Shown: piece after piece, positions 4,130-59,909 of the stretch
How positions within the stretch are numbered: the first letter of the stretch is position 1
Layout of the letters: each line of letters opens with the position of its first letter
DNA from: Terriglobia bacterium
Lineage (GTDB): Bacteria; Acidobacteriota; Terriglobia; Terriglobales; Acidobacteriaceae
Direction of reading: 5' to 3'
Assembly: GCA_020073465.1 (NCBI GenBank)
Contig: JAIQFC010000008.1
Location: 62,001-126,000 of the forward strand
Length of the DNA stretch: 64,000 nucleotides
The notes under the pieces: generated by a model
What the model saw: only the letters and a program-made list of their open reading frames with translations
Databases searched by the model: none
What the model was told of the DNA's origin: nothing
Translations under genes and position numbers: made by a program

Positions 4130-4272
4130 GGTAGTGGTGCAGTTTGCTTGTCATCCTGAGCAAGCGTACTTTGCGCCGCGAAGGATCTGGGCGAGCCGCG
4201 CGAAGCGTCGCGTTCTTTGCGACGCAATAATCGCGCGTTTGGCTCGCTTCCTTACCAAACTGCACCACTACC
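4130..4272. mobile_element. MITE-like element with perfect 17-bp terminal inverted repeats
   Basis: GGTAGTGGTGCAGTTTG at 4130-4146 is repeated as an exact reverse complement at 4256-4272, giving a 143-bp unit with no coding potential. Inside lies a TCATCCTGAGC ... GAAGGATCTGG palindromic core related to the repeats flanking the GIY-YIG gene at 11.6-12 kb. Similar units occur at 30658-30801 and 33849-33980. It lies just upstream of the retropepsin-like gene, whose start is 33 bp beyond its right end, so it may carry or block promoter activity. Confidence 0.75.
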
Positions 4273-7198: not shown

Positions 7199-7224
7199 TG
7201 TCATCCTGAGCGAAGCGAAGGACC
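7199..7224. repeat. TCATCCTGAGC palindromic repeat (family 3), short copy
   Basis: TGTCATCCTGAGCGAAGCGAAGGACC lies directly upstream of the metallopeptidase. On the minus strand its CAGGATGACAG reads into the GTG start, placing AGGA about 8 bases before the start. It belongs to the family found at 11555-11604. Confidence 0.7.
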
Positions 7225-7334: not shown

Positions 7335-7397
7335 GGGTCCTTCGACTGCGCGAGCCGATTCGCATTCGCGAATCGGCTCACTTCGCTCAGGATGACA
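7335..7397. repeat. TCATCCTGAGC palindromic repeat (family 3), extended copy
   Basis: GGTCCTTCGACTGCG ... CTTCGCTCAGGATGACAG with an internal perfect 11-bp hairpin (GAGCCGATTCG / CGAATCGGCTC). It lies immediately downstream of the leuB-like gene, where it could act as a transcript-end structure. Confidence 0.75.
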
Positions 7398-11554: not shown

Positions 11555-11998
11555 GGCGTCATCCTGAGCACAGCCGTTCTTCAGGCGGAGCGAAGGATCT
11601 GGCGTGGAGCACGCGAAACCGGCTTGTAGACGTCGTACCAGTCTTTTGCCAGGTCGTACCAGTGAGGATTGGCGCTTTCGATCAGCTCAATCTTTCGGCG
11701 GCGTAGCCAGCCCTTCAATTGTTTCTCACGGGCAATGGCCGCGTCAGGATAGAAGAACCTTTCGTAGTGGACCAGGTGGGTCAAGTTGTAACGGCTGGTG
11801 AAGCCGGGGATGAGCTTGTTCTTGTGTTGGAATACGCGACGAACCAGATTTCCCGCGACACCGATGTAAAGTACGTGATGTCTGGAGCCGTTCGTCATGA
11901 TGTAGACGAAAAAGCATTTTGACTTGCGCATGGTTCGATGCTGCCGCACGCCGGATCCTTCGCTCCGCCTGAAGAACGGCTGTGCTCAGGATGACGCC
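11555..11998. mobile_element. Putative mobile unit: GIY-YIG gene between 50-bp inverted repeats
   Basis: The left arm (11555-11604) and right arm (11949-11998) are reverse complements with 49 of 50 positions identical. They begin/end with GGCGTCATCCTGAGC and contain GGCGGAGCGAAGGATC. The 344 bp between them is almost entirely the GIY-YIG gene. The left arm also encodes that gene's last residues and stop. Solo copies of the same core are scattered across the window. No transposase or obvious target-site duplication was seen. Confidence 0.75.
11581..11931 (-). CDS. Small GIY-YIG endonuclease domain protein (UPF0213/YhbQ-like)
   Basis: A 116-residue protein consisting essentially of one GIY-YIG nuclease domain: FVYIM (residues 8-12); LYIGVAGNLVRR (21-32, the YIG element with the catalytic Arg); a mid-domain Tyr/His region; Glu69 in AREKQLKGW as the metal ligand; then SANPHWYDL, typical of the small stand-alone GIY-YIG family. 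Such proteins cut DNA, and some are linked to repair or mobile DNA. It is flanked by near-perfect 50-bp inverted repeats; residues QILRSA and the stop are repeat-encoded. ATG 11931 is preferred. An in-frame ATG at 11949 would begin exactly at the right repeat edge and add six residues. Confidence 0.88.
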   Translation of the reverse strand: MRKSKCFFVYIMTNGSRHHVLYIGVAGNLVRRVFQHKNKLIPGFTSRYNLTHLVHYERFFYPDAAIAREKQLKGWLRRRKIELIESANPHWYDLAKDWYDVYKPVSRAPRQILRSA

Positions 11999-13085: not shown

Positions 13086-13124
13086 TGTCATCCCGACGAG
13101 AGCGACAGCTCTCGGAGGGACCTT
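13086..13124. repeat. TCATCCCGA-type palindromic repeat (family 3 relative)
   Basis: GTCATCCCGACGAGAGCGACAG followed by CTCTCGGAGGGACC, downstream of ribF. The hairpin CGAGAG/CTCTCG is internal. It shares the opening and closing blocks with other copies. The remainder of the 13045-13354 gap up to 13220 shows no gene. Confidence 0.6.
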
Positions 13125-21440: not shown

Positions 21441-21501
21441 GGGATGCTTCGACTCCGCATCGTTTTCACGTGCGCGAAAGCGATGCTGCGCTCAGCATGA
21501 C
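21441..21501. repeat. Divergent family 3 repeat
   Basis: GGGATGCTTCGACTCCGCATCGTTTTCACGTGCGCGAAAGCGATGCTGCGCTCAGCATGACAAGC. It keeps the outer CTTCGACT ... GCTCAGCATGAC blocks of family 3 with a CGCATCG/CGATGCT-like internal pairing. It is located downstream of the sigma-54 activator stop. Confidence 0.6.
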
Positions 21502-33848: not shown

Positions 33849-33980
33849 GGTAGTGGCTCAGGTTGGGCCTGACTGAGGTGGGGTGCACGCGAGATCCCAC
33901 ACTTCGCCTGAAGAACGGCTCCGGTCGGGATGACGCCAATAGAAGTTGTTAGGCGTCAAACTCCAAATTGAGCCGCTACC
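33849..33980. mobile_element. MITE-like element, third, diverged copy
   Basis: GGTAGTGGCTCAGGTTGG (33849-33866) and CCAAATTGAGCCGCTACC (33963-33980) are inverted with 15 of 18 matches. The unit is 132 bp. The inside carries a family 3 core (33889-33937: GCGAGATCCCACAC ... GGTCGGGATGACGCC). Confidence 0.65.
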
Positions 33981-58517: not shown

Positions 58518-58591
58518 GCGAGATCCCTTCGGCTTCGCTCAGGGCAGGCTCTTCGCTCCGCCTGAAAAACGGCTTCGCTCAGGATGACGCC
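58518..58591. repeat. Family 3 repeat, long copy upstream of fabH
   Basis: GCGAGATCCCTTCGGCTTCGCTCAGGGCAGGCTCTTCGCTCCGCCTGAAAAACGGCTTCGCTCAGGATGACGCC. Its last 50 bp align with the arms around the GIY-YIG gene, including GCTCCGCCTGAA. GTAGGGCGCAGTTTG just before (58481-58495) resembles the MITE end, but no right-hand end was found. Confidence 0.8.
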
Positions 58592-59858: not shown

Positions 59859-59909
59859 GCCAGATCCCTCGCCCCGCTCGTGAAAACGCGGGGACTTCGG
59901 GATGACGCC
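59859..59909. repeat. Family 3 repeat copy upstream of the SRP RNA gene
   Basis: GCCAGATCCCTCGCCCCGC-TCGTGAAAAC-GCGGGGACTTCGGGATGACGCC. The outer blocks AGATCC...GGATGACGCC match the others; the centre is a distinct CCCCGC/GCGGGG hairpin. Confidence 0.7.

Follow-up and report, generated by a model that had tools for sequence, protein, structure and literature searches.

The 64,000-nucleotide stretch of DNA analysed here, which we call the window, carries a small GIY-YIG nuclease gene framed by two near-identical inverted repeats that also occur alone in the same genome. The locus raises two questions: (i) whether the repeats belong to the nuclease; and (ii) what such an enzyme would do with them. 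The reading that we favour, with a probability of roughly 0.6, is that gene and arms together make up a REPtron-like unit, in which a dedicated GIY-YIG nuclease is located between its own target repeats.

The term CGTC REPs is defined in excerpts of Di Nocera et al. (2013; PMC3733652), where these repeats are said to seem to be without a dedicated transposase and to include dRS3 of Neisseria and RPE-4 and RPE-6 of Rickettsia. Their origin was left open in 2013, the choices in those excerpts being an enzyme since lost or a wide range of transposases, and several REP families in one species are linked there to repeat-specific REPtrons. According to an excerpt of PMC3898611, dRS3 is present in almost 700 copies in a meningococcal genome and is also used by a phage integrase. 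An earlier report of a GIY-YIG partner of REPs was not found among the matches listed in a literature search whose scope excluded most subscription papers and bioRxiv preprints; the one paper listed that contains both 'GIY-YIG' and 'repetitive extragenic', PMC9465073, leaves them unconnected in its excerpts.

The nuclease gene and its repeats

The first-pass annotation had described a 116-residue GIY-YIG gene with near-identical inverted flanks of 50 bp, the left of which encodes the last six residues and the stop. All three statements are borne out by the following features:

11581-11931, minus strand: GIY-YIG nuclease gene, 116 amino acids; open reading frame with an ATG start; Pfam PF01541, E = 1.5e-11
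11555-11605, plus strand: left repeat arm with the tag GCGTCAT at its outer end; hairpin part 11558-11599
11948-11998, minus strand: right repeat arm with the tag at its outer end, upstream of the nuclease start; hairpin part 11954-11995

When 11555-11605 is compared with 11998-11948 in inverted orientation, the arms are identical at 50 of 51 positions (98.0% over 51 nt; the two flanks match each other with E = 5e-24 in blastn-short), and extension to 57 nt (11555-11611 and 11942-11998) leaves them 95% complementary. The left arm overlaps the stop codon and the final six to seven codons of the nuclease. An alternative GTG start at 11949 would lengthen the open reading frame to 11581-11949 on the minus strand. 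Two complete reading frames enclose the gene, and no intron or intein of a host gene contains it.

Five residues, Y10, G24, R32, E69 and N88, are invariant in 44 aligned proteins of the family, and by comparison with I-TevI and UvrC we take them to be of catalytic type. A structure model of the nuclease (pLDDT 86.6) has UPF0213 (1zg2) and Slx1 as its closest solved folds (Foldseek E 3.7e-3 to 7e-2); no Foldseek match lies at E < 0.001, the best being 3.7e-3. The family profile matches UPF0213 (1e-8 to 1zg2) and, weakly, UvrC, Slx1 and I-TevI, and none of seven PDB matches at E up to 1 is a solved member of the window nuclease clade. The protein has no match to transposase families in Pfam or NCBIfam, nor any at E 1e-5 in 50,697 phage records. 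Slx1 is a cutter of branched DNA, and it is for this reason that a hairpin or cruciform substrate is proposed for the nuclease.

Beyond the two arms, repeats without an adjoining nuclease gene are distributed through the window:

4150-4187, plus strand: solo tagged repeat with a paired stem
7200-7224, plus strand: solo tagged repeat with a paired stem, short form
7336-7396, minus strand: solo tagged repeat with a paired stem and a long inner hairpin
13087-13122, plus strand: solo tagged repeat with a paired stem
21443-21501, minus strand: solo repeat of another variant (GTCATGCTGAGC...GAAGCATCC), by eye resembling the flanks of nuclease copy L007 of the same genome
30728-30766, minus strand: solo copy of the window locus's own variant (blastn 90% over 39 nt)
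33905-33937, minus strand: partial solo copy of the window locus's own variant (blastn 88% over 33 nt)
58551-58591, minus strand: solo copy of the window locus's own variant (blastn 93% over 41 nt)
59863-59906, minus strand: solo repeat of another variant (GTCATCCCGAAG...GAGGGATCT), by eye resembling the flanks of nuclease copy L002 of the same genome

The solo copies thus listed represent at least three repeat variants, two of which resemble, by eye, the flanks at other nuclease loci of the genome. The motif TCATCCTGAGC occurs in the window 6 times exactly and 10 times at up to one mismatch with both arms counted (1.6 expected), and none of 100 shuffles reached a count of 10. Since those 10 matches include the arms, the number of other places is nearer eight than the dozen or so first claimed, and the claim of solo copies as such stands. 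Across the 5.9-Mb genome there are 293 matches to GTCATYCYGARC, compared with 2 for a reversed control pattern, and 83 to CGTTYTTCAGRCGGAG, the core of the window locus's own variant, compared with 0 for the control (up to one mismatch).

The same genome encodes further members of the nuclease family. A protein search gave eight matches corresponding to seven loci, the window locus and six more, and all seven are flanked within 500 bp on either side by tagged repeats (YGTCAT...). Each locus has a variant of its own: the pair of flanks belonging to one locus aligns with 46-244 bits, as against at most 30 bits for mismatched pairs. One of the copies, L007/L008 (G000:C15:20657-20952), is a single locus whose frame is broken and whose flanking repeats are kept.

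The repeats had also been called palindromes, which calls for a correction. As simple palindromes the window arms are poor (DNA folding z of -0.4 and +0.2, no significant hairpin), and what pairs in them is a short stem, GTCATNNNGA...GANNNAT, broken by two G.A mismatches. For a test of stem pairing, repeats were picked by GTCATNNNGA and the first GANNNA[TC]C after it, with no regard to pairing, and were found in 73 of 146 loci; the flanking G.A pair was part of the search motif. All three inner positions were Watson-Crick in 67 of the 73, over eight different stems, compared with 19 on average and 30 at most in shuffles. The pairing of the inner stem is therefore conserved while its sequence varies, and the stems covary across loci as hairpins.

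Judged on their sequences, the repeats largely fit the CGTC-type REPs, that is, a GTC tag followed by a hairpin starting with AT, and they fall into two broad classes: PAL, with a perfect stem, and GA, with a conserved G.A mismatch pair, to which the window belongs. Both window arms carry the tag GCGTCAT, as expected of the CGTC/TGTC tag, and a stem that opens with AT (GTCATNNN...NNNAT); at other loci 22 of 73 stems end in ACC and not ATC. In place of the 8-9 bp stem and 4-5 nt loop of CGTC REPs, the window arms have a 5-bp stem, a G.A pair and a long variable loop, and in place of the CCA tail they end in ATCT or ATCC. The longer stem and short loop are seen by eye in PAL-class flanks, several of which end in CCA or CCAG.

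Flanking repeats across phyla and their match to the nuclease

Loci for a survey of flanks were chosen by protein alone: genome contigs were scanned with a 15-protein alignment, and the best 80 among the matches listed were taken. Seventy-one had at least 350 bp on both sides and could be tested, 9 being dropped for short flanks, and 280 windows on the same contigs, at least 1.5 kb from the gene, served as controls. A locus was scored by an upstream/downstream repeat pair of at least 36 bits, or by a tagged stem on both sides. The repeat pair was found at 49/71 loci and 4/280 controls (Fisher p = 1e-37), the tagged stem on both sides at 45/71 and 2/280, and one or the other at 57/71 and 6/280, with positives in 17 of 18 named phyla (candidate phyla apart); the loci are related, and the 71 are therefore not independent draws. 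A stem motif on at least one side was present at 60/71 loci, and one such motif alone is weak evidence because 44/280 control windows also have one. Fourteen of the 71 loci score on neither count (three each in Bacteroidota, Bacillota and Pseudomonadota, one each in Ignavibacteriota, Chloroflexota and Verrucomicrobiota, and two unplaced), which speaks against a REPtron-like unit, and five of these 14 (L089, L110, L121, L125 and L127) have no tagged stem on either side.

Loci of other GIY-YIG families mostly lack such flanks. Among 20 of them from the same phylum, taken from the matches listed with profile E values of roughly 2e-16 to 3e-9, the repeat pair was found at 2/20 and the stem on both sides at 0/20. 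The corresponding figures are 17/20 and 7/20 for twenty further loci of the window nuclease clade, and 21/29 and 9/29 for 29 loci of the phylum. According to the first-pass annotation, its proposal would fall if other members of the nuclease family were without such flanks; relatives of the gene usually have them, and the proposal was not refuted on this count. The pattern GTCATYCYGARC is seen at 16 of all 36 GIY-YIG loci of the own genome and the phylum on any side, and at 12 on both sides, many of the loci having other repeat sequences. In a hand-picked subset of 28 loci, which excludes L015, L018, L025, L026, L028, L032, L033 and L038, the count is 15/28. The tag of the nearest repeat faces away from the gene in 68/89 cases upstream and 58/85 downstream, and the repeats lie at a median of 43 bp upstream of the matched stretch and 13 bp after the stop, with 18/85 beginning before the stop.

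A search of a plasmid collection matched 33 records, and twelve loci were examined. Nine have CGTC/TGTC-tagged repeats on both sides: those of Neisseria gonorrhoeae (where the repeat is dRS3), Azospirillum lipoferum, Sinorhizobium meliloti, Planktothrix, Spirosoma, Sphingobium, Aeromonas caviae, Shinella and Novosphingobium. At the nuclease locus of Sinorhizobium sp. C101 (L050) the repeat is a variant. No tagged repeat was found within about 150 bp in Photobacterium (L046) and Rhizobium (L049), and these 2 of the 12 loci are counted against the favoured reading. The records NZ_CP119140.1, NZ_CP119142.1 and NZ_AP026896.1 are filed as plasmids and yet are of chromosome size. On plasmid p1 of Planktothrix agardhii (L042), the nuclease has an MmeI-type restriction gene on one side and the DISARM gene drmA on the other. 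Tandem nuclease copies or fragments with repeats are present in Sinorhizobium meliloti (L041) and Flavivirga (L082).

Not only the presence of repeats but also their variant follows the nuclease. In 11 genomes with several copies, the upstream and downstream flanks of one locus match each other better than every mismatched pair at 29 of 36 loci, with one tie, and the medians are 65.9 bits for own and 20.3 bits for mismatched pairs (Wilcoxon p = 6e-7). The nuclease tree is itself of weak resolution: it is built on 96 columns, and of its 143 inner branches 19 are starred and 68 open. On this tree the repeat class requires 6 changes, the 103 labelled tips of 146 being labelled from stems beginning with AT and the 43 rows without a clear class being set aside. 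Shuffling of the class over the tree gives 32.8 changes on average and a minimum of 25 in 500 trials, and shuffling inside host phylum gives 18.5 and a minimum of 12 in 2000. With a looser labelling, in which chance stems not starting with AT are also counted, 36 changes are needed among three groups, compared with 63.6 when shuffled. Repeat class tracks the nuclease tree better than it tracks host phylum.

The same division extends to whole genomes. Among 46 genomes, the PAL pattern is present in 20/21 of the PAL class and 5/25 of the GA class, and at least 30 matches to the GA pattern are present in 17/25 of the GA class and 2/21 of the PAL class. These genomes derive from 48 of the 80 survey loci, with L105 and L118 left out and L067 put in GA by eye; L118 was omitted for the conflict between its label, GA, and its full-palindrome sequence, and its inclusion as GA would change the figures to 6/26 and 17/26. 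The association of the nuclease family with cognate flanking repeats across phyla is firm.

Repeat abundance and empty sites

If nuclease and repeat belong together, their numbers in genomes are of interest. Across 297 genomes of the phylum, at least 30 pattern matches were found in 23/31 with a strong nuclease match (E up to 1e-20) and in 10/266 others (p = 5e-20, kinship ignored). Eight strong genomes fall below 30 (G097, G131, G209, G002, G031, G114, G138 and G254), and seven of them, all except G097, have at the locus a repeat that the pattern misses. In the window's bacterial family the number of gene copies, counted as separate loci among the matches listed, correlates with the number of repeats (Spearman 0.61, n = 32, or 0.58 if the own genome is left out), and, again among the matches listed, the median number of repeats is 77.5 with the gene and 26.5 without it (p = 0.015). 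In 199 genomes of Flavobacteriaceae, the family of Kordia, at least five matches to one pattern were found in 24/104 strong genomes and 3/95 others. Gene and repeat abundance are thus associated in two bacterial families.

There are exceptions, which count against a REPtron-like unit. In Flavobacteriaceae, 80 of the 104 gene-bearing genomes have fewer than five copies of the sole pattern tried. The gene was not found at E up to 0.001 in the repeat-rich genomes G075, G199, G089, G155, G022, G202 and G060, and the pattern matches number 442 in G075, 95 in G155, 93 in G089 and 48 in G199. G115, G278 and G288 are also repeat-rich, and their nuclease matches are weak or partial. The first-pass annotation had held that equal abundance of the repeats in genomes without the gene would tell against its proposal; they are fewer in such genomes of the window's family, with clear exceptions. 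In G075, neither a nuclease of the family nor a Y1 transposase was detected.

Comparison of filled with empty sites, which had likewise been proposed at the outset, was possible in four groups. The interval between the MBL gene and ribF that holds the cassette in the window is 669 bp there and, by the same measure, 61-271 bp and gene-less in 29 genomes of the same genus; these relatives have only about 74-82% gene identity, and the edges of the window insertion cannot for that reason be fixed to the base. In one relative (L157 in G310) the interval contains a repeat doublet and no nuclease gene. The cassette of Azospirillum lipoferum has sufB on one side and sufC on the other and is absent from five other Azospirillum records, these being 5 of the 11 fully listed. 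Five Sphingobium plasmids comprise two filled and three empty sites, and at two of the empty ones (TYG64 and TYG74) a solo palindrome consists of the outer halves of both arms joined. Of three Shinella records, one is filled and two are empty. The position of the gene is variable, with insertion polymorphism among relatives.

No clean duplication was found at the insertion edges in Azospirillum, Sphingobium or Shinella. A regular target-site duplication is absent in the wider set as well, direct repeats outside the repeat proper being found at 13/146 loci and 2/304 controls, and this too is counted against the favoured reading. At a single locus, L013 in G070, a 33-bp exact direct repeat of the start of carB flanks the whole cassette in the manner of a target-site duplication. 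In Shinella sp. PSBB067 (L171), a GIY-YIG gene of the family is also located between sufB-like and sufC-like sequence, at about 1908-2165, as in Azospirillum lipoferum; the operon has possibly received such an insertion more than once.

Possible action of the nuclease and relation to known systems

In the reading favoured here, cutting and spreading of the repeat by the nuclease are inference; the enzyme might instead only use the repeats, or be carried by them. It would recognise the tag and hairpin when these are extruded or single-stranded, for example at replication, and would nick them, after which host enzymes would repair or copy the freed ends; the outcome would be the gain or loss of a repeat, or of the entire repeat-gene-repeat cassette. 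Solo repeats would then be copies that are not autonomous, the role proposed for REPs in RAYT systems. No covalent intermediate is known for GIY-YIG enzymes, and the joining would therefore have to come from host repair, which fits the absence of regular target-site duplications.

One competing explanation is selfish homing, in which the nuclease cuts pre-existing REPs of other origin and repair copies the gene in, so that the repeats are landing sites and not products. GIY-YIG enzymes include homing nucleases, the joined outer arm halves of the solo palindrome at TYG64 and TYG74 are what one would expect of a target or an excision scar, and the gene's neighbours vary among the annotated records (the suf operon, gltA/lpxB, fnrL, an amidohydrolase and others). 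Nevertheless, we consider homing unlikely: the class and variant of the repeat follow the nuclease, and in the window's family genomes with more gene copies have more repeats. Landing sites alone would predict neither, except where several nucleases had each settled on a separate repeat family that was already there. A reading in which RAYT-type Y1 transposases spread the repeats, with the GIY-YIG gene as a by-product, has in its favour that Y1 matches occur in 10 of 12 genomes examined and that, in excerpts of PMC3733652, GTAG REPs are thought to be spread by RAYTs. The same excerpts state that CGTC repeats were not found at tyrosine transposase genes by Di Nocera et al. In the present genomes, GTCATYCYGARC was found within 350 bp at 0/28 Y1 loci (30 loci from twelve genomes, 2 dropped for short flanks), compared with 17/23 GIY-YIG loci from seven of those genomes, where each of the 17 has it on both sides. 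In G035, which has no Y1 match, there are 249 repeats and three GIY-YIG loci. We regard this reading as very improbable.

Two other readings assign the enzyme no action on the repeats. Recombination at REPs could capture or keep small nuclease genes passively, and it is true that many flanks are direct as well as inverted repeats and that the tandem copies or fragments at L041 and L082 are such as recombination might leave. A passive association would not, however, readily explain why the repeats are mostly missing at other GIY-YIG genes (2/20 and 0/20), Y1 genes (0/28) and random windows (6/280), or why the link recurs across phyla with a repeat of matching class, and we think it improbable. 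We give equally little credence to the idea that the repeats are regulatory hairpins (a terminator, an attenuator or an element of mRNA stability) belonging to a repair nuclease of the host, with no action of that enzyme on repeat DNA. It would account for repeats located just outside or overlapping the coding region, and in Caulobacter, for which three COG2827 genes are noted, a COG2827 gene has an SOS box (PMC1839093, as excerpted). Against it, solo copies are numerous at other places in the genome, and the genes are inserted at sites that are empty in relatives, once within the suf operon. The passive, RAYT and regulation-only readings are accordingly ranked low.

Returning to the REPtron-like unit, the data suggest that the nuclease, a Slx1/UvrC-like enzyme unrelated to RAYTs, is the partner that the CGTC REP super-family has so far lacked. 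A broader proposal, to which we give even odds, is that such cassettes form a separate class of mobile element without a transposase, in which a GIY-YIG nuclease cuts its own hairpin repeats and host repair spreads repeats and cassette; it would be the missing CGTC REP enzyme in many phyla, with a repeat family of its own for each nuclease lineage. If the nuclease is indeed the dedicated enzyme of the CGTC REPs, REP-type systems would seem to have arisen twice, with one architecture built around two unrelated nucleases; numerous small GIY-YIG genes of 'UvrC-like' type would find their explanation as components of repeat elements; and compact nucleases, possibly hairpin-specific and with many natural specificities, would be at hand. 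A dedicated candidate enzyme turns the origin of the CGTC REPs into an experimental question.

Finally, we compare the cassette with known systems. With UPF0213/COG2827, the N-domain of UvrC, Slx1 and I-TevI it shares domain and fold; the match to UPF0213 is distant, and the 20 other GIY-YIG loci of the phylum are mostly without repeats. Unlike homing endonuclease elements, the window gene is not in an intron or intein. MITEs and insertion sequences also have inverted arms, solo copies and empty sites, whereas the window element has neither a regular target-site duplication nor a protein of a transposase family. The RAYT/REPtron system (TnpA-REP with GTAG REPs) is similar in that an enzyme gene lies between tagged hairpin repeats that also occur alone in high copy, but the enzyme there is an HUH/Y1 transposase and the tag is GTAG, where here they are GIY-YIG and CGTC. 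The repeats themselves share with CGTC REPs the CGTC/TGTC tag, the AT-opening stem and the high copy number, and PAL-class flanks (N. gonorrhoeae, Azospirillum, Sinorhizobium meliloti and Shinella) fit directly. The GA class of the window differs in its shorter stem, G.A mismatch pair and variable inner loops, and in ending with CT or CC where CGTC REPs end with CCA. The original suggestion of a palindrome family functionally paired with a GIY-YIG nuclease is partly supported: the association is firm, and the nuclease may copy or move the repeats. As a kind, the repeats have been described before, and largely fit the CGTC REP super-family, which was reported to be without a dedicated transposase.
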